Assembly (NCBI GenBank): GCA_017407115.1
Contig: JAFQXD010000042.1
Coordinates: forward strand, 124,001 to 188,000
Source: Methanobrevibacter sp.
GTDB lineage: Archaea > Methanobacteriota > Methanobacteria > Methanobacteriales > Methanobacteriaceae
DNA: 64,000 nucleotides
Reading direction: 5' to 3'
Made by a program: the position numbers and the translations under genes. This document shows positions 83 to 47,373 of the stretch, in pieces. The stretch's first letter is position 1, and every line of letters begins with the position of its first letter. The notes under the pieces were generated by a model. It did not search any database. It saw only the letters and a list, made by a program, of their open reading frames with translations, and was not told the DNA's origin.

Positions 83-93
83 ATAAAAATGAT

Positions 94-208
94 AAGGACA
101 GGTGAAACCTCTAGTTCACTTGGGAAAGGCGGCAACCTTTCCCTTACTTATTTCATAAATATTATAGTTATGATGCCCATAACTATATTTTTATACTAGA
201 GGTTTAAT
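94..208 (+). promoter_or_regulatory. HEG-associated kissing-loop RNA, copy 1
   Basis: Starts with AAGGACAG (94-101). Hairpin H1 pairs 100-106 with 115-121; its loop ACCTCTAG (107-114) is the exact complement of CTAGAGGT (196-203), which holds the Shine-Dalgarno site of the endonuclease gene starting at 209. Hairpin H2 pairs 122-129 with 136-143 (8 bp); its loop contains GGCA (131-134). Hairpin H3 pairs 164-172 with 178-186 (9 bp); its loop contains TGCC (174-177), complementary to the H2 loop. CATAAATA (154-161) between H2 and H3 resembles a T4 late promoter. The same layout recurs at 19874-22942 and 29045-29153 with different sequences. Inferred role: blocks endonuclease translation on read-through mRNA. 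Confidence 0.8.
154..161 (+). promoter_or_regulatory. putative T4-type late promoter CATAAATA
   Basis: One mismatch to TATAAATA. By T4 spacing the start site would be near 167, inside the 5' arm of H3 and downstream of H1/H2, so a late transcript would lack the arms that mask the ribosome-binding site. Confidence 0.4.
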
Positions 209-1198
209 ATGTTACAATGTAAAATATGTAACCAGGAATTTAATTCATATACTGGCTTAGCAGGACATATCAATTTAAAGCATCATATTTCATCAAAAGA
301 ATATTATATTAAATATTTAAAACAAAATGATGAAGGTATTTGTCCTATTTGTGGAAAAGAAACAAAATGGTTTTCATTACGAAAAGGTTTTAGAAAACAT
401 TGTTCAAAATCTTGTTCATCTGCAGATCCTAATGTTTATAAAATAAAGACAGAAACTGAATTTAAAAATACAGGTTATTATAATCAAATGGAAAATCCAA
501 TTCATCATAAAAAGATGATCGAATTATCAAAGTTAAAAGAAAATCAAGAAAAACGAATACAATCTTGTAAAGATAACAACGGCTATGGAACAGGATTTCA
601 AATAAAATCTGTTAAAGAAAAAGCAGAAAAAACAATCATAGATAAATATGGTGTTGATAATGTTTTTAAATTACCAGAAATTCATCAAATAGCAAATAAA
701 ACTAAAGAAGAAAAATATAATAATAAAAATTATAATAATAGAGAAAAAGCAAAAGAAACATATTATAATAAAACTGGATATTATATACCATTACAAAATC
801 CTGAAGTTAAATCAAAAGTTAAAAAATTGTATACATTTAATAATATAAAATTTGATTCTAGTTGGGAATTAGCATATTATATTTGGTTAAGTGATAATAA
901 TATTAATTTTAAATACCAACCAAATATGCCACTTGAATATAAAGTTAATAATTTGATAAAATATTATTATCCAGATTTTTTAGTAAATAATCAATTTTAT
1001 GAAATTAAGGGTAATCAATTTTTTAATGAAAATAATCAATTAATTAACCCATTTAATAATACATTAGATATTGAAAAATATCAATGTATGATAGATAATA
1101 ATGTAAAAATATTAAGAGAAAAAGATATAATTCCAATATTAGATTATATAGAAATAAAATATGGTAAAAGCTATTTAAAACAGTTTAAAACTAATTAA
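209..1198 (+). CDS. homing endonuclease, zinc finger + PD-(D/E)XK-like
   Basis: 329 aa. The N-terminus has a C2H2-type finger (C4, C7, H20, H25) and a second Cys cluster (C45, C48, then HCSKSC near 65-70). The middle has modules of the type KYGVDNVFKLPEI, repeated more often in the copy at 29154. The C-terminus has a putative nuclease core: FDSSWELAYYIWL (about 214-226, catalytic Glu), YYPDFLV (about 253) and EIKG (about 268), i.e. an E...PD...ExK layout. Very AT-rich codon use sets it apart from its neighbours. The start follows the Shine-Dalgarno AGAGGT at 198-203, which is the sequence masked by H1. It is a free-standing gene between two genes, not inside an obvious intron. Nuclease activity and target are inferred. 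Confidence 0.75.
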   Translation: MLQCKICNQEFNSYTGLAGHINLKHHISSKEYYIKYLKQNDEGICPICGKETKWFSLRKGFRKHCSKSCSSADPNVYKIKTETEFKNTGYYNQMENPIHHKKMIELSKLKENQEKRIQSCKDNNGYGTGFQIKSVKEKAEKTIIDKYGVDNVFKLPEIHQIANKTKEEKYNNKNYNNREKAKETYYNKTGYYIPLQNPEVKSKVKKLYTFNNIKFDSSWELAYYIWLSDNNINFKYQPNMPLEYKVNNLIKYYYPDFLVNNQFYEIKGNQFFNENNQLINPFNNTLDIEKYQCMIDNNVKILREKDIIPILDYIEIKYGKSYLKQFKTN

Positions 1199-15078: not shown

Positions 15079-18000
15079 ATGAAAAAGATAATCGGAATAT
15101 TACTATTTTTAGCTGCATTCGTTTTTTCTGCAGACTATAAGCCGTTTAACTTTGAATCTATCCCACAAGATTCTGCAAGTCAACAGGATCAATTTGATTA
15201 TATGCTTCAATATAAGTTATATGGTCATGATTTTATCAAAATGGGAAACGATGTTCGTATTCCAGACAAGTCAGGTTGGAATGGTACTGTAGGTAATATT
15301 ACTTCTAATGCAAGATTGACTTTGGGCGGTCCGATTCTTGCAAATGGCAGTATTTCTATGGGAGATGGTCCAAATAATATTACTGGACCAGTTCGCTCAG
15401 TCGATTTTGATCTTGGAAATGTAAATGGTTCTAAGATTGCAAGCCCTGTTTGCTTAAGTGGAACTGCAAATACTAATGCATTATCTGCGATTGAAGATCA
15501 TAAGACTTATTCTTTTGATACAGACATTTGTAAGGACAGCGTTCCTGCTGCACCTACAAATCTTTATATGCCGATTGTTGATTGGGATAATCTTGGTGCT
15601 GATGTTAAGTTGAATGATATTGTTTTAAGTGGCAATGATGCTGCAGATACTATTTTTGTTCCTAAGGGCGAAGGTGCATATAAGATTTTAATTGACAAGA
15701 TTCAGTTTGGTCTTGGTGGAACTAATGCAAGCCATTTATATGTTAAGATGCAAGATGGCGGTAGATTGACACAGATTTTCGTAAAGAATTTTATTTATGG
15801 AAACCATGCTACAATTCAGGTTGTTTATGATACTGACAGTGGAAGCGTAGTATTGAATCAGGACCAATATCGTGGTAACTTGATGTTCTATTCTAATAAT
15901 GTTATTAGTTTTGATAATATGGACTATGCTCCTATTCAAGGTTCATTTATTTCTACTGATTCAATTTTCTTAGGAAGAAATGTTAATATTTCTGGTCAGT
16001 TATTGACTAATAAGCTTGAAATTGGAAATGATATTGATGGTAAAAACTTCAGATTTGTTAAATTCGACCCTGATACAATCGATGTTAAGCTTGATAAGTA
16101 TGGTGGTTTGAGAGAAAATGATTCTACTGTTATTATTCCTATTGAATTAAGCGATACTGCTACTATTGCTGTATATTTTAGATATTGTTTTGATTTGAAA
16201 GATGGTGTAACTGTTGAAGACTTCATTATTCCACCTACATTCCCTGTTTGTGGCACTGATCAGCCAAAAGAAGTATCTATTCCTATCGGTTCAAAGACTC
16301 CAAGTGATCCAATTAAGGTAAATGTTAAAGTCGATACATTGACAGAAAATGAATATCTTGTAATTAAGATTGACAGTATTTCTGGTGCTATTCTTCCTGA
16401 TGGTAAGACCGAAGGTGAATTAAAAATTAAAATTATTGATGCTCCAGTAGGTCATGTTGAATTTGATACTACAAAGACATATAAGTTCGAGGAAACCAAA
16501 CTTGGTGAAGTAGATGTAATCAAGATTTTAAATGGAACTGAAAATACTCGTTTCCATCTTGATAGCGCATATACTGATAGATATGAATTGGATAGCTTGA
16601 CTGGTAAGTTGACACTTATTGGTGAATCATTAGATTATGAAAAGGCTGCAATCGATGTTATTAAGGTTACATTGACTGACACTGGCAATGTAAGTGTAAC
16701 TCGTAATATCCCTATTTCTGTAATCGACGTTAATGAAGCACCTACTATTGATGATATAACTACTAATCTTCCAGAAAATCTTATTCATCCATTTATGGTT
16801 GAGAAGTTGGTTGCAAAAGATCCAGATACTAAGACAGCATTTACTCAAAATGTTTTCAGTATGCTTGAAGGTGATACAAGTTTATTCAGAGTAGATTCTG
16901 ATGGTGAAATTTGGGCTAAGAAGACATTTGATTATGAAACAGATCAAAAGACCTATACTTTGAAGGTTTTGGTCCAGGATAAGACTAATCCAGCATTGAA
17001 GGATAGTGCTATTGTTACTGTTAATATTACAAACAGCAATGATGGTCCTAAGTTCGATACTCATGATACTACATTCCATGTAAAAGAAAATGAACCATTT
17101 AAGGATAGTGTAAAGGCTACTGACCAGGATGGTGATAAGATTACTTATTCTATCGTTGGAACTGTTCCTTTCAAAATTGATTCTAATGGCGTAATCACTT
17201 CTACCAGAACATTTGACTACGAAAAAGAAACAGGATTTACATTTAAGGTCGTTGCTGATGATGGTAAAGCAAAAGATACAATGACTGTAAATATTATAGT
17301 AGACAATGTAAATGAGCCTGTTCATACCAAAGATACAACTTTTGTTGTAGATGAAGGTAAAACCGGTGAAATCGGTAAAGTCAAAGGAGAAGATGAGGAT
17401 GGAAAGCCTGTTAAATTTTCTTGCGATGATAGTGTGCATTACAGCATCGATATTAATACTGGTGTTCTTAGACTGGTAGACCCATTTGATTATGAAGTTA
17501 CTAAGTCTGATACAGTTAAGGTATTTGTAACTGATGGAGTATTTACTGATACTGCCATAGTTGTTGTTAATGTCAATAATGTAAATGAACCGCCTGTATT
17601 ACAGCCGAATGACTCTCTTACAGTTCCTGAAAATTGCAAGAGCTGTATTGTTGGTATCATTACTGCTGTTGATCCGGATAGCGATAAGGTAATTTACGAA
17701 GTTAAGGAACCAGGCTTTACAATCGATTCTAATGGAGTATTAAAGCTTACTGATCCTCTTGATTATGAGAAAACTCCAGAAGTTAAGATTACTGTTATTG
17801 CAAAGGATTCTAGTGGTGCAGCTGATACTGCTACCTATGTAATCAAGGTAACTGATATTAATGAACCAGTCCATGTTCAAGATACAACTTGTTCTGTAAA
17901 GGAAAACTATACTGGAAAGGTTTGTAAGATTGATGCTTGGGATGAAGATAAGACTACTCCGAAGTATACAATTACCGATACTACAAATTATTCTATAGAT

Positions 18001-19875
18001 TCTACAGGAACAATTACTATCAAGACTCCTATCGATTATGAAAAGAAGACAAAGGACACAGTTACTGTTATTGTAACAGATGGCGAATTTTCAGATACGG
18101 CACAGGTAATTATCAGAGTTCTCGATGAACCTGAAGATGTAAAGATTACCGAATGGGATCATAATCCACCGCCTGATACAGTAAAGACTAATGACCCTGA
18201 TCATGAATATAAGTGGACAATTTGTGAAGGCGATTCTTGCATTACACATTATGATAATCCACGTATTCATAAGGACACAACGATTAAGGTTTGCAATGAC
18301 AAGAAGACTGTTTGCGATTCTATTGTAGTATTGTTCAATGATGCACCTCCAGTAGTTACTTTAACCAATGCAAAGTCTACTGATGCCTTGATTGACTATA
18401 TTACTATCGAAGAGCAGAAGGATGATAAGATTTATGTCAATAAGAAAGATAATGAATTGAAAGTTACTGTTCGTGATACTGTTCATAAGACAGAAAAGAC
18501 TTTCCCGATTGATGTAAAGCTTGATACTGTTCATGTTTCTTCTAAGAATGTTGTTGAATACAATTACTTGATTGATGAAAGCGTTGCCAAGGTTACACCT
18601 ATCGGTAATGGTCTTTATGAAGTCAAGGAAGTTGTAAAGGTCGACGGTAGAAATGTTACATTGACTAAGATTGTCGATAAGAAGATGAATCCGGTTGATA
18701 CGATTCAGACTGTAACATATACAGTTAAGCAAGATGGTAAGGAATTAACTATTACTTATAAGACTGACAATTTAACAGGTCAGAGAATCGGCGATTATCA
18801 GGTTTCTTATAAGATTGATTCTTGCACAACAGTTTCTTATTACTTAGGTGACAATAAAAAGATTACTAAGAATGAAGAAGGTAATATTGCCTATACAGTA
18901 AGCTATGAATATACCGATGATTATGGTAATAAGGCTACTTCTAAGGTAGATATTATTTTCGATGATATTCCGCCAGTAGTAGAGATTCTTACACCTTATG
19001 AAATGGAAAAGTTCAATACTAATGCTATTCCAGTTGAATGGACTGTTAATGGTGTAAAACAAGATACTTTGACATTACAGCGTCTTGAAAAGGGAATTAA
19101 TTCTGTAATTCGTAGATATGTTGATAAGGCTGGAAACGTTGCAGCTGATACGATTATGGTATTCATGAATGAAGCAAAGGATATTGACATTACACTTGTT
19201 CATCCTGTAACAATGGTTGATCAGGACAAAGTTGATAGCTTCTATTCGGAAGGTAATAAATACGATCCTAAAAAGCCTTACACAGTTACTACTTTGAAAG
19301 GTGATGATAAACCTGACCCAGTAGGTATTGGATTTAAGATTGATGTTGCTTTGCCTTCTGTATCACCAACTGGAAATGTATCTACATTATCAGATATAAT
19401 AAAAAATGATAAAATACCTGTTGATGATAAAGGTAATGTAGTTGGAGCATCTAATCTTAGCATACCAGTAGAAGAATATATAAATGAAAATTGTACTGAT
19501 GATTTTAGACAAGATTATAATAAAAATGGAACTAATATACCATTATACAATGTTAAATACAATTTACATTTATGGATATATACTTCAAATGCTAATTATG
19601 TAAATGATTTTGAAATTAACTATGATATAGATTCTAAAACTGAAGCAAATGAAGCTAGTATAGCGAATTTTGTAATAGATTGGATTCCTGAAAAAGATGG
19701 TAATGTTAAAGCTAAAAATCAACATTCACTTGGAACTGGAGCATATTTAGTTAAATTGTATAGTAAATCAACTGCTATATATAGATGTGGCTTTAAAAAC
19801 CAAAAAGCTGGTGATAAGATTACCAAAAAAGAATATAATCTTAAATCATTTGGCTATAAAAGACCTAACAAATAA
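15079..19875 (+). CDS. giant secreted protein with cadherin-like repeats
   Basis: 1598 aa. Signal peptide MKKIIGILLFLAAFVFSA. Residues 20-370 are beta-rich without a recognised family. From about 380 to 1030 there are five or six cadherin-like repeats with calcium-type linkers (DVNEAP, NVNEPP, DINEP) and DYE/FDYE...VxVxDG signatures. More Ig-like segments follow. The last 137 residues duplicate, at about 60% identity by hand alignment, an orphan coding stretch at 23924-24343. From about 19370 on, codon use shifts to the very AT-rich style of the homing endonucleases, so the 3' end is a foreign replacement. Probably exported to or beyond the outer membrane; role unknown (adhesion or surface masking possible). 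Confidence 0.8.
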   Translation: MKKIIGILLFLAAFVFSADYKPFNFESIPQDSASQQDQFDYMLQYKLYGHDFIKMGNDVRIPDKSGWNGTVGNITSNARLTLGGPILANGSISMGDGPNNITGPVRSVDFDLGNVNGSKIASPVCLSGTANTNALSAIEDHKTYSFDTDICKDSVPAAPTNLYMPIVDWDNLGADVKLNDIVLSGNDAADTIFVPKGEGAYKILIDKIQFGLGGTNASHLYVKMQDGGRLTQIFVKNFIYGNHATIQVVYDTDSGSVVLNQDQYRGNLMFYSNNVISFDNMDYAPIQGSFISTDSIFLGRNVNISGQLLTNKLEIGNDIDGKNFRFVKFDPDTIDVKLDKYGGLRENDSTVIIPIELSDTATIAVYFRYCFDLKDGVTVEDFIIPPTFPVCGTDQPKEVSIPIGSKTPSDPIKVNVKVDTLTENEYLVIKIDSISGAILPDGKTEGELKIKIIDAPVGHVEFDTTKTYKFEETKLGEVDVIKILNGTENTRFHLDSAYTDRYELDSLTGKLTLIGESLDYEKAAIDVIKVTLTDTGNVSVTRNIPISVIDVNEAPTIDDITTNLPENLIHPFMVEKLVAKDPDTKTAFTQNVFSMLEGDTSLFRVDSDGEIWAKKTFDYETDQKTYTLKVLVQDKTNPALKDSAIVTVNITNSNDGPKFDTHDTTFHVKENEPFKDSVKATDQDGDKITYSIVGTVPFKIDSNGVITSTRTFDYEKETGFTFKVVADDGKAKDTMTVNIIVDNVNEPVHTKDTTFVVDEGKTGEIGKVKGEDEDGKPVKFSCDDSVHYSIDINTGVLRLVDPFDYEVTKSDTVKVFVTDGVFTDTAIVVVNVNNVNEPPVLQPNDSLTVPENCKSCIVGIITAVDPDSDKVIYEVKEPGFTIDSNGVLKLTDPLDYEKTPEVKITVIAKDSSGAADTATYVIKVTDINEPVHVQDTTCSVKENYTGKVCKIDAWDEDKTTPKYTITDTTNYSIDSTGTITIKTPIDYEKKTKDTVTVIVTDGEFSDTAQVIIRVLDEPEDVKITEWDHNPPPDTVKTNDPDHEYKWTICEGDSCITHYDNPRIHKDTTIKVCNDKKTVCDSIVVLFNDAPPVVTLTNAKSTDALIDYITIEEQKDDKIYVNKKDNELKVTVRDTVHKTEKTFPIDVKLDTVHVSSKNVVEYNYLIDESVAKVTPIGNGLYEVKEVVKVDGRNVTLTKIVDKKMNPVDTIQTVTYTVKQDGKELTITYKTDNLTGQRIGDYQVSYKIDSCTTVSYYLGDNKKITKNEEGNIAYTVSYEYTDDYGNKATSKVDIIFDDIPPVVEILTPYEMEKFNTNAIPVEWTVNGVKQDTLTLQRLEKGINSVIRRYVDKAGNVAADTIMVFMNEAKDIDITLVHPVTMVDQDKVDSFYSEGNKYDPKKPYTVTTLKGDDKPDPVGIGFKIDVALPSVSPTGNVSTLSDIIKNDKIPVDDKGNVVGASNLSIPVEEYINENCTDDFRQDYNKNGTNIPLYNVKYNLHLWIYTSNANYVNDFEINYDIDSKTEANEASIANFVIDWIPEKDGNVKAKNQHSLGTGAYLVKLYSKSTAIYRCGFKNQKAGDKITKKEYNLKSFGYKRPNK

Positions 19876-19923
19876 GGACAGGTAGCCCTCGTACTACTTG
19901 GGATAGAGTTGCAGCTCTATCCC
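19874..19923 (+). promoter_or_regulatory. HEG-associated kissing-loop RNA, copy 2, 5' half
   Basis: AAGGACAG (19874-19881) begins inside the TAA stop. H1 pairs AGGTAG (19880-19885) with CTACTT (19894-19899); its loop CCCTCGTA (19886-19893) complements TACGAGG (22932-22938) before the endonuclease ATG at 22943. H2 is a perfect 9-bp stem (19900-19908 with 19915-19923); its loop holds TGCAG (19910-19914), complementary to CTGCA in the H3 loop (22903-22907). The partner half lies 3 kb away, beyond three inserted genes. Confidence 0.75.
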
Positions 19924-19996
19924 TAACTTTTTGGATAATTTTTATAAAAGTTCAGTTTTGTAAACATAATTTTACATATTTTTTACATAAAATTGG

Positions 19997-20025
19997 TTTA
20001 CAAGAATAAGTTTATTTATTATATT
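19997..20025 (+). promoter_or_regulatory. sigma70-type promoter
   Basis: TTTACA (19997-20002), 17-bp spacer, TATATT (20020-20025). It drives the Cys-rich outer-membrane protein gene at 20070. Confidence 0.7.
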
Positions 20026-20069
20026 TTAACTAACAATTAAACAAATCAACTAAAAAGAGGTATTAAATT

Positions 20070-22181
20070 ATGAAGAAACTTTTGATTTTGATTCTATGTT
20101 TGGTTTCTTTGTGTTTTGCTGATAAAATTTTAACTACTACTGTTGGAAAATTAAATCCTACATCAAAAGTAATTGGTGGTTATGAAGAAACGCATGGGGT
20201 AAAAGTTACTTGGAACTTATCTAAAGGTAGAATTACCACAAAGGGAAATTCTTTAGATTCAGCTGAAGAATTTATGATTCGTATTTGGGATAAAAACAAC
20301 CAAAGAATTGATGCTTATGCTTCGGAAATTTTTATTAATAAAGACTTGACTGGTGACGAATATAAAGTTTATGGAAATGATTTGAATGATGCTAAATTCT
20401 TAGATTTGGTGTTTTTTAATGATAAGTTCAATCCAACAAAGTCAACTTTTGTATGTACTGATGACCATACGGTTCCATTTGAATTAGAAAATGGTAGTGT
20501 TGTTTGTGCCAATCCAGATACAACATTTAAAAATAAAACTATTATAATTTATAATGATGAAAACAATAATAATGATTATTTGATTAGAGAAGTAAAAACT
20601 TGTAAGATTAAAGAAAAATGTGATGGTTTTAAATCATATAATCTTAATACATCTGAATTTGAATGTCATACAAATTATTATAAACAAACAACAGAAAAGA
20701 AATGTATTCCTGAAAAGAAATGTAAGAAATACGAGAAATTAGATGAATATGATTACTGTGTTAGTCCTGATTCTGGGTATATTTGGTTAAATAATGATAA
20801 GAATGATTTAAGTCAAAGACCTGCTTGTAAAGCAGAAAATGAACGATATAATGAAAACACTAATCAATGTGAATACAAGATTGAAAATTCTCATTGGGTT
20901 GGAAAATCTTTAGAATATGAATGTAATGAAGGTTATGTTTCTATTAATGGTCTTTGTGAAGAAAAAGTTTCTTGTAATGGAGATGAAAGATACAATGAAG
21001 AAAATAATAGTTGTGTTTCTAAACCCGAAAATTCTCACTGGAATCAAGATAACGATATAATTTGGATTTGCGACAACGGTTATGTAGAAAGATATGGAAG
21101 TTGCGAAGTTAAAAGAGTTTGTAATGAAAACCAAAAATATGTTGAAACAGATAATTGGTGTGTAAATCCACCAGCTAATGGCTATTGGAATTATAGAGGT
21201 GATGTTGTATGTAATGAAGGTTATGTAAAAGTTGGTTTATTGTGTGAACAGAAAGCCGAATGTGAACATTGGAATAGTGAAGATAATACTTGTTTTGAAA
21301 AGCCTGCTCATTCTCATTGGGTTTATAGTGAAGGTGCTACTTGGGAATGTGATAATGGTTATCATAGTGATACTGAAAATGAGTATTGTTTTAAATGTGA
21401 AGGAGAAACACAGTTCAATTATTCAACGAATACTTGTGTAACAAAGCCTGAAAATTCACATTGGAGTAGTGAAGGAATTTGGCATTGTGATAATGGTTTC
21501 TTTGAAACTGAATATAGTTGTGAAGAAATTAAAGAGTGCGGTTTCTTTGAACGATATAATTCTTATACAAATGAATGTGTAGATAAACCATCGGATTCTC
21601 ACTGGACTTATGATAATAGTACAAACTGGGAATGTGATGATGGTTACTACAAGACTTACTATGATAAATGCGAAAAGACAAACCCTATTGATTTAACAAA
21701 CTATATAAATTTTGCCCACGATTTGACTTTTGGTATTGGTGCTGGTAGTGGTAAAGACCAAAAAGATAATTCCACCACGATTTTCAATGTAGAAGCAAAT
21801 TATAACATTGGGGTTAAAATTGGTAATGAATTTTTCAATATAAGACCACAGTTTAGTGTTGGTTTATTGTACACAGAATTTGAATATAGTGGTTACATTT
21901 ATATGGATGAAACTGTAAATTCTATGGCATTTACTTTCGGTCCGAATATTGGGTTTGATTTTTGGAAGTTTAGTTTTGATTATTCTTATATTTGGAGATG
22001 TGGAGAAAGGCTTGAAAGCATTACATTCAATGACACCTATTCTAAATATAAGTTTGGATTTAATATAAATGAACATTTTAATGTAAATGTAACAATGATT
22101 TCTAAAATGATTAGTAGCACACAACGATTGAAAGAATTTGATGATAATATGTTCTCACTTGGTTTAACATATAGGTTCTAA
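20070..22181 (+). CDS. Cys-rich repeat outer-membrane beta-barrel protein
   Basis: 703 aa. Signal peptide MKKLLILILCLVSLCFA. Residues 130-540 hold about nine EGF-like modules with the recurring pattern C..., KPENSHW, WxCDNGY, CE. The last 165 residues (FAHDLTFGIGAGSG onward) alternate polar and aromatic residues and end in LTYRF, the aromatic C-terminus of outer-membrane barrels. The likely design is a barrel anchor with a disulfide-rich domain. It lies inside the homing element with its own promoter and is followed after 1 base by a lipoprotein gene. Possible roles are surface masking or superinfection exclusion, or it may be a captured host gene. Confidence 0.7.
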   Translation: MKKLLILILCLVSLCFADKILTTTVGKLNPTSKVIGGYEETHGVKVTWNLSKGRITTKGNSLDSAEEFMIRIWDKNNQRIDAYASEIFINKDLTGDEYKVYGNDLNDAKFLDLVFFNDKFNPTKSTFVCTDDHTVPFELENGSVVCANPDTTFKNKTIIIYNDENNNNDYLIREVKTCKIKEKCDGFKSYNLNTSEFECHTNYYKQTTEKKCIPEKKCKKYEKLDEYDYCVSPDSGYIWLNNDKNDLSQRPACKAENERYNENTNQCEYKIENSHWVGKSLEYECNEGYVSINGLCEEKVSCNGDERYNEENNSCVSKPENSHWNQDNDIIWICDNGYVERYGSCEVKRVCNENQKYVETDNWCVNPPANGYWNYRGDVVCNEGYVKVGLLCEQKAECEHWNSEDNTCFEKPAHSHWVYSEGATWECDNGYHSDTENEYCFKCEGETQFNYSTNTCVTKPENSHWSSEGIWHCDNGFFETEYSCEEIKECGFFERYNSYTNECVDKPSDSHWTYDNSTNWECDDGYYKTYYDKCEKTNPIDLTNYINFAHDLTFGIGAGSGKDQKDNSTTIFNVEANYNIGVKIGNEFFNIRPQFSVGLLYTEFEYSGYIYMDETVNSMAFTFGPNIGFDFWKFSFDYSYIWRCGERLESITFNDTYSKYKFGFNINEHFNVNVTMISKMISSTQRLKEFDDNMFSLGLTYRF

Positions 22182-22182
22182 T

Positions 22183-22653
22183 ATGAAATACATACTTTTA
22201 ATTTTAACGGTGTTGTTTATTGGTTGTGCCAATGATACTGGAATGTCAGTTGAAGAAAATAATGAAGCCGAAATTGAAACTAATATAAATTATACAAAGT
22301 ATTCAAATGTTAGTTTGTATGATAATATAACCATAGAAAACATTTATTTCACTGACCATTGTGAAGAATGGGATTTTGGAGGAAATGTTTATCCTTGTGT
22401 TACATTCTATAACAATTCAAATAAAGAATACAATCTAAAAATACAATATATTGATTATTGTAATGATAAACAACAAATTACAACTGATTATTTAGATATA
22501 AAAGCATTTTCTTACACAAATATACATTCTTTAACTTGTTGGAGTCCAAAAACATATAAAATCATCATAACAACATTATCAGCCAAAGAAAATTATAATT
22601 GGAATGTTATTTGGAATGGGCGAGTTGAATTAGATTACAGAAATTTTCATTAA
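22183..22653 (+). CDS. lipoprotein, unknown function
   Basis: 156 aa. Lipoprotein signal MKYILLILTVLFIGC (lipobox LFIGC, Cys15), then an acidic tether and a beta-rich domain with further Cys pairs. Starts 1 base after the barrel gene stop, so likely co-translated; it may assist that protein at the outer membrane. No family recognised. Confidence 0.65.
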   Translation: MKYILLILTVLFIGCANDTGMSVEENNEAEIETNINYTKYSNVSLYDNITIENIYFTDHCEEWDFGGNVYPCVTFYNNSNKEYNLKIQYIDYCNDKQQITTDYLDIKAFSYTNIHSLTCWSPKTYKIIITTLSAKENYNWNVIWNGRVELDYRNFH

Positions 22654-22671
22654 AAAGGAAATACTAAAAAC

Positions 22672-22866
22672 ATGTTGAAAAAAATTATTTTTGTTTGTAT
22701 TATTTTCAATTTTATAGGCTGTAGTTCAGATAATTCTATGCAGCCGAAAGAAATTTGTCATTATGAAACAGCTTGTAATGATACACAAACAGGCGGTTTT
22801 CGTGACAGACATTCTGGTTGTAGAACACCATATCAGAAACAAGTTTGTGAAGAAATCCATTATTAA
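22672..22866 (+). CDS. small Cys-rich lipoprotein
   Basis: 64 aa. Lipoprotein signal MLKKIIFVCIIFNFIGC with CSSDNS after the cut site, then about 45 residues with five more Cys (CHYETAC; SGC; QVC). Start behind AAAAGGAA. Third gene of the envelope cassette inside the homing element. Function unknown. Confidence 0.6.
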   Translation: MLKKIIFVCIIFNFIGCSSDNSMQPKEICHYETACNDTQTGGFRDRHSGCRTPYQKQVCEEIHY

Positions 22867-22884
22867 ATTATAAATCATATTTCT

Positions 22885-22942
22885 TATAAATAATAATGTA
22901 GACTGCAGTCTACATTATTATTTATTTTAAATACGAGGAAAT
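22885..22942 (+). promoter_or_regulatory. HEG-associated kissing-loop RNA, copy 2, 3' half with late box
   Basis: TATAAATA (22885-22892) runs into H3, a perfect 12-bp stem (22891-22902 with 22909-22920) whose loop CTGCAG carries the complement of the distant H2 loop. TACGAGG (22932-22938), the Shine-Dalgarno site of the broken endonuclease gene, complements the distant H1 loop. The three envelope genes sit between the halves, most simply explained by insertion into a once compact RNA. Confidence 0.7.
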
Positions 22943-23923
22943 ATGAAATTAACATATATTTGTAAAATATGTGGAAAAGAAAGTGTAAACAATAATGGTT
23001 TAATTAGCCATATAACACAAACACACAAATTATCATCAAAAGATTATTACGATAAATTCTTTAAAAAAGAAAATGAAGGAATTTGTCTAGTTTGCGGAAA
23101 AGAAACATAGTTTATAAAATTTTCACTCGGGTATCGTAAAACTTGTTCATATAGTTGTGCTTCAACAAACAATGCTGAAGATAGAAAACAAGTTAGACAT
23201 AATAATTATGATGGAAAGTATTTTTCTAAAGAAGGTAGAGAAAAATTAAATCAAATTGCAAGTGAAACCTTTGAAAGCAGAAATAAACAAAATATAGAAA
23301 AACTTAAAACTGAATATAAAATACCAAATGAAGTAGAAATTACAAACATATCACAAATAAAAGAAATTAAAGATAAAAAAGAACAAACAAACATTGAAAA
23401 ATACGATGTTAAAAATTCATTTTTAATAAAAGATGAAAATGGAATAGAAAAAAGAATAAAAACAAGTAATGAAAAATATGGTACAAATTATCCTATGCAG
23501 AATGATAAATTACAGGATAATCGTATAAAAACTTGTATAGATAAATATGATACTTTATATTTTACACACAAATACAAATATAATGATTTAAAATTTGATA
23601 GTTCTTGGGAATTAGCATATTATATTTGGTTAAAAGATAACAATATAGAATTTACATATCAACCTAGACCTGCTATATTATACTTTTGGAATGGTGATAA
23701 TAAGTATCATAAATACTATCCTGATTTTATAGTAAATAATGAAATTATAGAAATTAAAAATCCATATCTATATTCTAAATTTTTATTAGAAGGAACAAAA
23801 GACAATGCTAAATATAAGAAAATGCTTGAATATAATGTTAAAATTTTAACTGATTGTTCTACTTATTTGAATTATATAGAATTACAATATGGTAAAAATT
23901 ATTTAGATAAATTTAAACTTTAG
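22943..23923 (+). pseudogene. homing endonuclease gene broken by an amber codon
   Basis: Paralogue of the genes at 209 and 29154. ATG 22943 behind TACGAGG; the N-terminal finger (YICKICGKES...HITQTH) is intact, then TAG at 23108-23110 interrupts the frame after KET where the gene at 209 continues KETKW. The frame reopens without shift to TAG 23921-23923 and retains KYGTNYPMQN, FDSSWELAYYIWLK, YYPDF and EIKN. An internal ATG (23495) could give a 142-aa nuclease-only product. TAG is used as a normal stop elsewhere (44798, 46816), so reassignment is unlikely. EIKN in place of EIKG keeps the ExK motif. Confidence 0.75.
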
Positions 23924-24343
23924 GGTATTCCGGTAGAAAAATATGTTGAAGAACATTGTACTGACGAATTTAAGAAGGACTATAAAAAGAATGGTTTGAA
24001 CATTCCGCTTTATGATGTTAAATATACATTGCATCTATGGATTTACACTAATACTGCTAATTACGTCAGTGATTTCAACGTAGAATATACTTTGAATGAC
24101 GAAGATGAGGTTACTTCTGCAGGAACTGTCCAGATGGTTATTGACTGGTTAGCAGATAAGGATGGCACTGTCAAGGCTAAGAATAAACATGCTCTTGGAA
24201 CTGGCGCATATTTGACCAAGTTATTCAGTAAGTCTGTAGCAAAGCACCGCTGTGACTATAAGGAACAACGTAAAGGTGATAAGACTGTTAAGAAGGATGA
24301 AACTTTCAAGACTTTCGGTTTCAAGCGGCCAAATAAAAAGTAA
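23924..24343 (+). pseudogene. displaced original 3' end of the cadherin-repeat gene
   Basis: The frame runs directly on from the endonuclease TAG: GIPVEKYVEEHCTDEF... to ...FGFKRPNKK. It matches the C-terminus of the 1598-aa protein (82 of 137 aligned residues by eye) and has the more balanced codon use of that gene's main part. It has no start or ribosome-binding site, so it is the native tail cut off by the homing element. Translation would need read-through of the TAG or an internal start at 23996. Confidence 0.75.
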
Positions 24344-28391: not shown

Positions 28392-29035
28392 GTATAATGG
28401 ATCTTGTCGGTGTTCAAAGAGGAATTGATTTTGAACATAGTTCACCAACTGTAATGCGATATAAACCTGATATAAGAGAAGGTTATACATATGCCAGTTT
28501 TGAACCTAAGTATGGTCATACGCCAAATTGGCAACCTTTATGTAATGATTCTTCAGATTTACATAAAGAAATTGTTTTAGCATGTAAGCAGGTTGCAAAA
28601 GTTACAGAAATGAAAAATCCAATAGGTAATGATCCTTTTTGGCATGATTCTGGACTTGAACGTGCAGCAACAATTGTTTCTAAGATAATGCAACTTTGTA
28701 ATGAAATTGCTATTACTACACGTCAAGGTCAAGGTAATATTATTGTATTGAATACTAAGATGTATGATTTATTACACGAATTAACATCTGGTTTTATAGA
28801 TTGTCCATTTATTACTGAATCTGCACCAGGTGTATTAAAAATGGTCGGTAGAGATACTTTTAAAATGGACTTTGATGATTATTCAAATTATCCAGAAGCT
28901 ATTATGGCATATCATTCTAATAATTCGTGTTTATGTGGTGCTGTTGCAGCACTTAGTCCTACCGAGACTTATTTTTCAATTAATACCGATATGGAAGGAA
29001 CAGAAAATTATTATAGACTTTTAAGGATAAAATAA
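28388..29035 (+). CDS. gp23-like small protein (paralogue 1)
   Basis: 215 aa. TRQGQGNIIVLN (about 114-125), then FKMDFDDY, YPEAIMAYHSNN and CLCGAVAALSP follow the order of the T4-type capsid protein C-terminal region (RRGxGN..., VYVDPY, VGYKG, DAGIFY). It pairs with the clearer paralogue at 30814; both end in YYR(L/V)(L/I)(R/K)(I/L)K. Less than half the length of gp23 (about 520 aa), so not a full capsid protein; perhaps a minor head, vertex or decoy subunit. Starts 4 bases inside the transporter gene. Similarity judged by eye. Confidence 0.45.
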   Translation: MSIMDLVGVQRGIDFEHSSPTVMRYKPDIREGYTYASFEPKYGHTPNWQPLCNDSSDLHKEIVLACKQVAKVTEMKNPIGNDPFWHDSGLERAATIVSKIMQLCNEIAITTRQGQGNIIVLNTKMYDLLHELTSGFIDCPFITESAPGVLKMVGRDTFKMDFDDYSNYPEAIMAYHSNNSCLCGAVAALSPTETYFSINTDMEGTENYYRLLRIK

Positions 29036-29044
29036 TATTTATAA

Positions 29045-29153
29045 AAGGACAGATATGTTACTAATCCATATTTGATATAATTTACCGGATTATATCTAAC
29101 TTTTATAAATATTTAAAGACAATCCGGTAAATTGTCTATAAATAGGGATTAGT
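29045..29153 (+). promoter_or_regulatory. HEG-associated kissing-loop RNA, copy 3
   Basis: AAGGACAG (29045-29052). H1 pairs 29051-29057 with 29067-29073; the loop segment TACTAATC (29059-29066) complements GATTAGTA (29147-29154), which reaches into the start codon at 29154. H2 is a perfect 8-bp stem (29074-29081 with 29089-29096) whose whole loop TTACCGG (29082-29088) complements the whole loop CCGGTAA (29124-29130) of H3, a perfect 7-bp stem (29117-29123 with 29131-29137). TATAAATA (29104-29111) lies between. The most complete copy: all four helices and the promoter are uninterrupted. Confidence 0.85.
29104..29111 (+). promoter_or_regulatory. T4-type late promoter inside the HEG RNA
   Basis: Exact TATAAATA. 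The expected start site (about 29117) is the first base of H3, so a late mRNA would carry H3 and the ribosome-binding site but neither H1 nor H2. Confidence 0.6.
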
Positions 29154-30308
29154 ATGATTTTGAAAATTTATTCAGAAGTAGAATTTAATATTTTAAAAAA
29201 TACACATAAAGAATATTCATATAATGGAACAAAAGCAATTTTTATTTGTTCATTATGTAAAAAAGAATCTATTAGGTCTTTTAAATCATTGACTATACCG
29301 TTTTTATGTAAACACTGTAAAGGGCATTTAAGCCATACAAGTGAAGAATATAAAGAAAAATATAAAAAATCAATGATTAAAAAATACGGAGTAGAATATA
29401 CTTTTCAAGCAGAAGGAATAAAAAATAAAGCAAAAAAGACGATATTTCAAAAATATGGTTGTGAAAATGTATTTCAAGCAGAAGAAATAAAAGAAAAAAT
29501 TAAAAATACAAATTTAATTAATATTGGAGTTGAATATCCAGGACAATCAAGGCAATGTCAATTAAAAGGGAAAGAAACATATAAAAACAAAACGGGTTAT
29601 GAACATAATATGCATAATCCAGAATCAAAAAAGAAAGTTAAAGAAACAACAATAAAAAGATATGGTGGTATTGGTGGCGCGTCAGATGAAATACGTGAAA
29701 AAATGGAAGAAACCAATTTAAAAACCTATGGTAAAAAATCATATTCATCTACTGAAGAATTCAAAGAAAAATTTCGCGAAACATCATATAAACGTTATGG
29801 TGTTGAGCATCCAACACAATCAAATATTATTAAAGAAAAAATAAAAAACACATGTATTAAAAAGTTTGGCGTGGAAAATTGTATGCAAAATCATTTTATT
29901 CGTCAAAAATCTAGGAAAAAATATATATATGATAATAAACGATTTGATTCTAGTTGGGAACTTGCATATTATATTTGGTTAACTGATAATAATATAGAAT
30001 TTCAATATCAACCAAATATTAAATTAAAATATGAATATAATAATAAAATACATTATTATTTTCCAGATTTTTTAGTTAATAATGAAATACATGAAATTAA
30101 AGGTAATTTATTTTTTAAAGAAAAAGATGAAACTAATGAAATGATTTGTCCATTTAATAAAGATTTAAATCATTTAGCTGAAGCAAAACACCAATGTATG
30201 ATTGAACATAATGTAAAGATATTAACTGAAAAAGAAATAAAATTATATTTAGATTATATTAATAAAAAATATGGAAATAATTTTTTAAAACAATTTAAGA
30301 GAAAATAA
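29154..30308 (+). CDS. homing endonuclease, KYGV-repeat + PD-(D/E)XK-like
   Basis: 384 aa. N-terminal Cys cluster (CSLCKKES; LCKHCKG), then about six modules of the form KKYGVEYTFQAEGIKNK between residues 70 and 255, probably DNA-binding units, then a putative nuclease core FDSSWELAYYIWL (about 264-276), YYFPDFLV and EIKG. Paralogue of the genes at 209 and 22943 and the most intact of the three. The start codon overlaps the segment paired with the H1 loop. Inserted between a gp23-like gene and nrdG; very AT-rich codon use. Activity and target site are inferred. Confidence 0.78.
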   Translation: MILKIYSEVEFNILKNTHKEYSYNGTKAIFICSLCKKESIRSFKSLTIPFLCKHCKGHLSHTSEEYKEKYKKSMIKKYGVEYTFQAEGIKNKAKKTIFQKYGCENVFQAEEIKEKIKNTNLINIGVEYPGQSRQCQLKGKETYKNKTGYEHNMHNPESKKKVKETTIKRYGGIGGASDEIREKMEETNLKTYGKKSYSSTEEFKEKFRETSYKRYGVEHPTQSNIIKEKIKNTCIKKFGVENCMQNHFIRQKSRKKYIYDNKRFDSSWELAYYIWLTDNNIEFQYQPNIKLKYEYNNKIHYYFPDFLVNNEIHEIKGNLFFKEKDETNEMICPFNKDLNHLAEAKHQCMIEHNVKILTEKEIKLYLDYINKKYGNNFLKQFKRK

Positions 30309-46992: not shown

Positions 46993-47022
46993 TTTATAAT
47001 TCTAATTTGTCAACACTTTTAA

Positions 47023-47373
47023 TGGACCCGAGGGGAGTCGAACCCCTGTCTTAAGTAACTTTAATATCCGTTCCTACAAGTTTTTCCTTCGAATTTACTT
47101 ATTCATTACATTTATGCCCTGAAGGTCGGCGTCAATGTAAACTAGCCTGTAAACTTCAGAAATAATACACAGACTTAATTATTTCCTAATCCATTATGCG
47201 ACCGAACTTTATACCCAATGGATGAACGGTATAGGCTCAGTGTTGCTATAAATTAAGCAGCCATTGCGTAAGTGTTAGCACTTATCTTTTTCAGACTTTT
47301 TTACAAGAACCCTCGTCTGAGACCTTGACTTGCAACTAATATCTCTATCACCCAATCGAAACCAGACGAGCCC
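47023..47373 (-). ncRNA. ssrA: transfer-messenger RNA
   Basis: One-piece tmRNA of 351 nt. The 5' GGGCTCG pairs with 3' CGGGTCC (7 bp, two wobbles); the T-arm is AGGGG-TTCGACT-CCCCT; the 5' region has GGTTTCGATTGGGT. The tag frame (47253-47279) encodes ANTYAMAA then TAA, ending in the Ala-Ala recognised by tail-specific proteases. The 3' CCA is not encoded (the discriminator A is followed by TTA), so it would be added by the host enzyme. Rescues stalled ribosomes together with host SmpB; no SmpB gene is seen in this window. Confidence 0.92.

Follow-up and report, generated by a model that had tools for sequence, protein, structure and literature searches.

The window, the 64,000-nucleotide stretch of DNA analysed here, covers positions 124001-188000 of a 191-kb contig and encodes a Gp23-like capsid protein, a radical-SAM protein of the NrdG kind and an NrdD-like ORF, which mark the contig as a T4-like phage. 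The phage is a large T4-like virus of bacteria. A contig filed in a Methanobrevibacter MAG, JAFRFB010000097.1 (172,971 bases), carries matches to the element described below, and the placing of a T4-like phage with Shine-Dalgarno sites in such a MAG is probably due to misbinning. A near-identical phage occurs in G046:C134, from which positions 15084-23217 of the window (8.1 kb, with copy 2 of the element and the start of its endonuclease gene) are absent; in the rest of the stretch that was compared, identity is 99.7% or higher. A phage-encoded tmRNA lies at 47020-47373 on the minus strand (RF00023, 138 bits).

The element at the centre of this work, copy 3, precedes the gene of a DUF7487 homing endonuclease, several relatives of which are carried by the same contig. 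Its parts, with the evidence for each, are as follows.

29038-29156, plus strand: copy 3, whole element, one member of a conserved RNA family
29038-29047, plus strand: 5′ strand of the closing helix P1, TTTATAAAAG, pairing with 29100-29109 (sequence; covariation of helix 1 in 50 copies)
29048-29052, plus strand: fixed joint GACAG between P1 and H1 (near-constant across copies; motif controls with 0-1 matches against 57)
29053-29071, plus strand: hairpin H1 (sequence; helix 2, 99.5% of cells paired in a model-fitted and hence inflated alignment)
29058-29066, plus strand: H1 loop, holding the anti-RBS TACTAATC (sequence)
29072-29073, plus strand: fixed joint UU between H1 and H2 (UU in all 48 strong-stem matches of a pattern that did not require it, although the descriptor score adds a UU bonus)
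29074-29096, plus strand: hairpin H2, loop TTACCGG at 29082-29088 (sequence; helix 3, 99.2% of cells paired on the same inflated measure)
29097-29099, plus strand: fixed joint UAA, UWA in the family (motif controls)
29100-29109, plus strand: 3′ strand of P1, overlapping the late-promoter box (sequence)
29104-29111, plus strand: T4-type late-promoter box TATAAATA, predicted start at about 29117 (box statistics in the same phage)
29118-29136, plus strand: hairpin H3, loop CCGGTAA at 29124-29130, predicted 5′ end of the late transcript (family test of H2-H3)
29146-29154, plus strand: RBS and start-codon segment GGATTAGTA, matched by the H1 loop (sequence; shuffles)
29154-30308, plus strand: regulated gene, DUF7487 homing endonuclease, 384 aa (PF24308, E = 1.4e-44; phrog_12131 homing endonuclease, E = 3.5e-30)

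The order in copy 3 is thus P1, GACAG, H1, UU, H2, UAA and the returning strand of P1, with H3 standing outside the junction. A sequence-only reading had proposed that the whole H2 loop is complementary to the whole H3 loop and that a segment of the H1 loop pairs as far as the start codon, and both matches are exact: the H2 loop is the 7/7 reverse complement of the H3 loop, and TACTAATC (29059-29066) is the reverse complement of 29147-29154, where 29154 is the A of the ATG. The match between H1 and the RBS reaches 9 nt if C29067, the base that closes H1, opens. When 29033-29156 was shuffled 20,000 times with dinucleotides preserved, 29 shuffles gave an H1-RBS run of this length, 19 gave an H2-H3 run of this length and none gave the two at once. 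We also agree that copy 3 is the cleanest uninterrupted copy within the 64-kb window. Outside that earlier account were the junction closed by P1, the fixed joint sequences, the internal late-promoter box at 29104-29111 and the occurrence of the RNA opposite divergent endonuclease genes. A transcript beginning at 29040 would trim P1, which starts at 29038.

A family of three-way-junction RNAs

The family core, as the aligned copies define it, is a three-way junction of P1, H1 and H2, with the fixed joints GACAG, UU and UWA and with stems that covary freely. A covariance model built from copy 3 alone recovers the other three copies in the phage (E = 2.4e-7, 2.9e-4 and 7.7e-4) and also matches two copies in another assembly, G040. 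When viral contigs were searched by pattern scans and then by a structural descriptor, 57 distinct matches were obtained, of which 56 were kept and one, a coding match, was dropped. Permuted versions of GACAG in the same DNA gave 0 or 1 matches, and on these motif controls a chance origin of the family was rejected. The first pattern scan of the viral contigs had returned only chance matches in coding sequence, and a BLASTN match of copy 3 to a Campylobacter phage proved to be an unrelated hairpin.

A junction-only model built from six other copies, in which the box is not modelled (R2), finds copy 3 in the 3-Mb assembly at E = 2.1e-8 and copy 2 at E = 1.3e-7. An alignment of 50 copies to R2 has 96.2% of its cells paired, a percentage inflated by the fitting of the alignment to that model, and both sides change in 17 of the 18 pairs. 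Joint changes and controls with slid partners do not depend solely on the fit; here, cells changed on both sides number 342 against 89 in shuffles, and sliding the partners collapses the signal. About 10 unpaired joint positions are near-fixed, and stems and loops vary freely. Three loci (L375, L400 and L401) carry GACAA rather than GACAG, so that the fifth joint base is not invariant.

The other copies proved genuine as well, with copies 1 and 2 in the window and a fourth outside it (C83:116361-116481). Those in the window are laid out as follows.

84-211, plus strand: copy 1 (found by the copy 3 model at E = 7.7e-4)
91-96/147-152, plus strand: P1 of copy 1, loosely extended, with GACAG at 97-101, H1 at 102-119 and H2 at 122-143
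154-161, plus strand: box CATAAATA of copy 1, with H3 at 163-187 and the RBS segment at 196-203
209-1198, plus strand: homing endonuclease gene after copy 1
19866-19930, plus strand: 5′ part of copy 2, with GACAG at 19877-19881, H1 at 19882-19897 and H2 at 19900-19923 (R2, E = 1.3e-7)
22880-22945, plus strand: 3′ part of copy 2, with TATAAATA at 22885-22892 and H3 at 22895-22916 (alignment with viral locus L248)
22932-22938, plus strand: RBS segment TACGAGG of copy 2, complementary to the H1 loop of copy 2
22943-23923, plus strand: homing endonuclease gene of copy 2, with an in-frame TAG

Copies 1 and 4 keep the element order of copy 3 and the same scheme of loop complementarity with different stem and loop sequences, the complementary pairs being CCTCTAG/CTAGAGG and GGCA/TGCC in copy 1 and TTTTGATCTC/GAGATCAAAA and TTGGCG/CGCCAA in copy 4. 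The unbroken viral locus L248 aligns to both parts of copy 2, which indicates that a 2.95-kb insertion separates them. This segment (19931-22879) carries lipoprotein-like ORFs and splits copy 2 exactly between junction and late box; the P1 of this junction is down to three pairs. Downstream of the copy 2 endonuclease gene, the ORF at 23996-24343 is similar to the C-terminal part of the 1598-aa protein encoded upstream of copy 2 (15079-19875) and, judged by this likeness, is a partial gene duplication around the mobile element.

Rfam 15 gives no match at gathering score in the window or in five element-bearing loci, a permissive Rfam 15 scan at copy 3 returned only microRNA-like and other sub-threshold chance matches, and literature searches of open-access papers found no description of the RNA; the family is apparently undescribed. 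No copy was found by R3, under strict filters, in T4, KVP40, Aeh1, pf16, P-SSM2 and S-PM2 or in Cr30, HTVC008M, phiM12, PhiW-14, CP81 and CPt10, which is weak evidence of absence because of those filters and because a known copy, in the record of L092, had escaped the first look. R2 and R3 together found none in T4, no cultured phage carrying the element was found at the limited sensitivity of these searches, and a scan of genome contigs gave no structural match besides the near-identical phage contig.

Loop wiring and late-promoter boxes in two gene settings

The 47 nonredundant members fall into two ARRANGEMENTS, A (n = 34, copy 3 included) and B (n = 13), a split made by gene orientation and loop match; this partly conditions the loop tests inside each group and leaves the promoter differences independent. 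On these partly conditioned tests, the loops of A match their own downstream region far better than those of other copies (H1 z = 13.4, H2 z = 11.4, with 0 of 5000 permutations as good) and match downstream only, H1 scoring z = 0.6 against the left side; in B, where the endonuclease gene is divergent, lying to the left on the opposite strand, the H1 loop matches the RBS of that gene (z = 7.9, 0 of 5000 permutations) and shows no match to the same-strand gene (z = -0.2). Across 43 nonredundant copies, own against permuted partners, the match of either H1 or H2 scores z = 11.7 with the RBS and z = 12.8 with the H3 loop. That these pairings recur with different sequences makes a translational lock the best reading. 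Terminators were rejected, since the loops follow the RBS.

A DNA-level feature, such as a recognition site for the endonuclease itself or hairpins that act in DNA when it is supercoiled or single-stranded, would fit an element that travels with mobile endonuclease genes and has few G-U pairs in H1 and H2 (45 of 607), and there is a precedent in T4, where I-TevI binds an operator over its own late promoter (PMC2988022). The loops, however, match the RBS specifically and in the orientation of mRNA pairing in both arrangements, with no signal in the opposite orientations, which leaves a role at the level of DNA very improbable. Small ribozymes commonly share another aspect of the element, a compact junction shape in which pseudoknots occur together with fixed single-stranded joints. 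A self-cleaving ribozyme or processing site is extremely improbable nonetheless, there being no match to any Rfam 15 ribozyme family and cleavage leaving unexplained why the loop sequences follow the RBS.

How the loops are wired differs between copies. In A, either H1 or H2 matches the downstream RBS, and in 21 of 34 members the other loop matches the H3 loop. Type I (n = 16, including copy 3) combines H1-RBS with H2-H3, and type II (n = 5 nonredundant, e.g. L048, L165, L183, L193 and L219) combines H1-H3 with H2-RBS, the latter being short or weak in some. The two type I pairings can be nested as one long imperfect stem, in which case the lock would be a single extended hairpin with no kissing complex in the repressed state. 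The minimum free energy fold of copy 3 (-32.6 kcal/mol, against -14.3 kcal/mol for the local fold without loop-loop pairs) is nested in just this way, without the local hairpins, and may thus represent such a hairpin; copy 4 folds likewise, and the loop match between H2 and H3 in copy 3 can extend into both stems. Of the loop kiss and trapped start codon in the sequence-only reading, the complementarities stand, being exact and recurring with different sequences, and the kissing complex itself is a candidate structure, the local hairpins that would present the kissing loops being opened in this fold. An extended hairpin leaves the junction and its fixed joints unexplained, though, and all three helices covary. 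It also does not account for type II, where the wiring is swapped in five nonredundant copies and the pairings cross each other and so cannot nest. We give the extended hairpin a minor but appreciable probability.

The target genes are nearly all homing endonucleases or endonuclease-like. In B, the left gene is a homing endonuclease in nearly every readable case (GIY-YIG, SegE-type, HNH with NUMOD3, DUF7487, or a zinc-finger type without a clear Pfam nuclease). Three loci (L124, L221 and L262) precede a DUF5055 protein and have a junction without H3, in which the H2 loop matches the RBS; there, going by the loop match, the lock may be used outside mobile genes. H3-less copies had also been considered as cis regulators of virion genes, which they seemed to precede, an idea that was dropped once the upstream side showed that most of them have a divergent arrangement and match the left-hand endonuclease.

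The box TATAAATA occurs at 97 sites in the contig, 71 of them intergenic and 73 at most 120 nt upstream of a same-strand ORF start, as against 146 and 98, respectively, of 595 sites for eight permuted words, a distribution that suggests it behaves as a promoter in this phage. A PHROG late-sigma (gp55-like) profile matches a 197-aa ORF on the same contig at E = 7e-5, a weak match from a profile that also matches in bacterial control genomes, and T4 gp55 as a sequence query gave no match in the assembly. On contig C83, 19 sites (one of them at 1248-1262) have TATAAATA only 3-6 nt before the ATG of an ORF of 90 aa or more, which would put the predicted late start on the start codon and raises the possibility of leaderless late mRNAs.

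In A, the box lies between the junction and H3 and is present in 32 of 34 members, a frequency inflated by search patterns that required it. Four A-type copies found by R2 or R3, in which the box is unmodelled, also carry it (L375, L395, L400 and L401; a small sample), and four B copies found in the same way have no plus-strand box downstream. Where H3 is present, it starts 0-7 nt after the box, with a mode of 3-5. In T4, the TATA box stands about one helical turn before the start (PMC2988020), and the same spacing here would place the 5′ end of a late transcript at the first bases of H3 or slightly before them, in copy 3 at about 29117. The predicted late transcript of copy 3 folds H3 alone and leaves the RBS and AUG unpaired.

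The boxes of B are placed differently. About 11 nt before GACAG, TATAAATA is found in 8 of 13 B members and 1 of 34 A members, and TATTTATA, the box on the other strand, stands just to the right of the junction in 8 of 13 B members exactly and in 13 of 13 within one mismatch, against 0 of 34 in A. The two would act as facing late promoters on either side of the junction, and the junction strand runs antisense to the leader of the endonuclease. The cis mechanism proposed for A is not available to arrangement B, and we suppose that the junction RNA of B acts as an antisense RNA on the neighbouring endonuclease mRNA, in the manner of IS10 RNA-OUT. Antisense action in trans could even be the main role of the RNA, in B and perhaps also in A. 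The pairing of the B H1 loop with the divergent RBS rather than the own-strand gene and the boxes flanking the junction agree with this, but A, copy 3 included, has no late box upstream of the junction, and its loops both match the same strand within about 100 nt, for which action in cis is simpler. A mainly trans-acting RNA is, on balance, rather unlikely.

A proposed promoter-switched translational lock

Our reading of copy 3, to which we assign a probability of about 0.7, is that of a cis-acting translational lock on the homing endonuclease gene, for which the conserved three-way junction serves as the scaffold and a switch of promoter as the release. It builds on the junction and its covariation, the specific complementarities, and the box with its position, all of which come from sequence and comparison. 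We infer read-through transcription from the upstream gene, and on such transcripts 29038-29109 would fold into the junction. The H1 loop would then bind the RBS together with the first base of the start codon, while pairing of the H2 loop with the H3 loop would hold the two halves together, so that the RBS and start codon are covered and the endonuclease is not made early. Later, the box at 29104-29111 would act as a promoter and drive transcripts starting near 29117, at the foot of H3. These would lack P1, H1 and H2, thereby relieving repression: the RBS would be free and the endonuclease made late.

The near-fixed joints, set among stems and loops that vary freely, could also indicate a factor, from the phage or the host, that binds the GACAG/UU/UWA junction and switches the lock between open and closed, making the RNA mainly a ligand- or protein-responsive switch. 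Some T4 mRNAs are indeed under the control of bound proteins (PMC3014915). The joints may merely stabilise the junction, however, no cofactor is indicated, and the internal promoter already supplies release, which makes a responsive switch distinctly unlikely. For the promoter-switched lock, a wider generalisation is that of a phage-wide RNA class restraining homing endonucleases, in which one scaffold with loops retuned to each RBS serves as a cis-acting early-silent, late-open lock with two interchangeable wirings and, from a facing late promoter, as a trans-acting antisense RNA, for which a related endonuclease carried by a co-infecting phage might be a further target. This we put forward tentatively, at somewhat less than even odds.

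Homing endonucleases are selfish genes whose expression needs to be harmless to the carrier phage. In T4, simple hairpins can delay them, as shown case by case; here, one RNA scaffold is repeatedly fitted to unrelated endonucleases (DUF7487, PD-(D/E)XK-like, HNH and GIY-YIG) in many uncultured phages, and its two orientations imply two modes of control. If true, mobile genes would have a wide-ranging RNA regulator whose loop can be programmed. From the rule that loops follow the RBS, the effects of compensatory mutations can be predicted directly, and the pair of wirings offers a compact natural test of pseudoknot design.

IS10/Tn10 provides a counterpart for arrangement B in RNA-OUT, which exerts antisense control of the transposase. 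Like RNA-OUT, the junction RNA of B would start from a promoter directed towards the target gene, and one of its loops is complementary to the ribosome-binding region of an enzyme gene that belongs to a mobile element; it differs in its fold, its homing endonuclease target, its T4-type late promoters and the use of the same RNA also in cis. The T4 gene 32 leader is likewise a phage leader pseudoknot that controls translation, but it is autoregulated through bound gp32, does not pair with its own RBS and has an unrelated fold.

The closest parallel is in the leaders of T4 I-TevI, e, soc and 49 (segB is implicated as well) and of Aeh1 mobE, which are RBS-sequestering hairpins with an internal late promoter. 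Early-silent, late-open control is documented for I-TevI and others (PMC2988022, PMC3014915). As in these leaders, the RNA on transcripts initiated upstream would cover the SD and/or AUG, the internal late promoter would yield transcripts without the 5′ part, and the regulated gene is often a homing endonuclease. Copy 3 has an upstream segment complementary to the SD and start over 9 nt and a late box between anti-RBS and RBS. As to a single local hairpin that includes the RBS, copy 3 has a nested minimum free energy fold on the one hand and the covarying three-way junction on the other. The known leaders are single hairpins; here a conserved junction presents the anti-RBS loop, H3 is paired by another loop, and this scaffold is found again across phages with new loop sequences. 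On our reading, copy 3 follows the logic of T4 I-TevI on a new scaffold.
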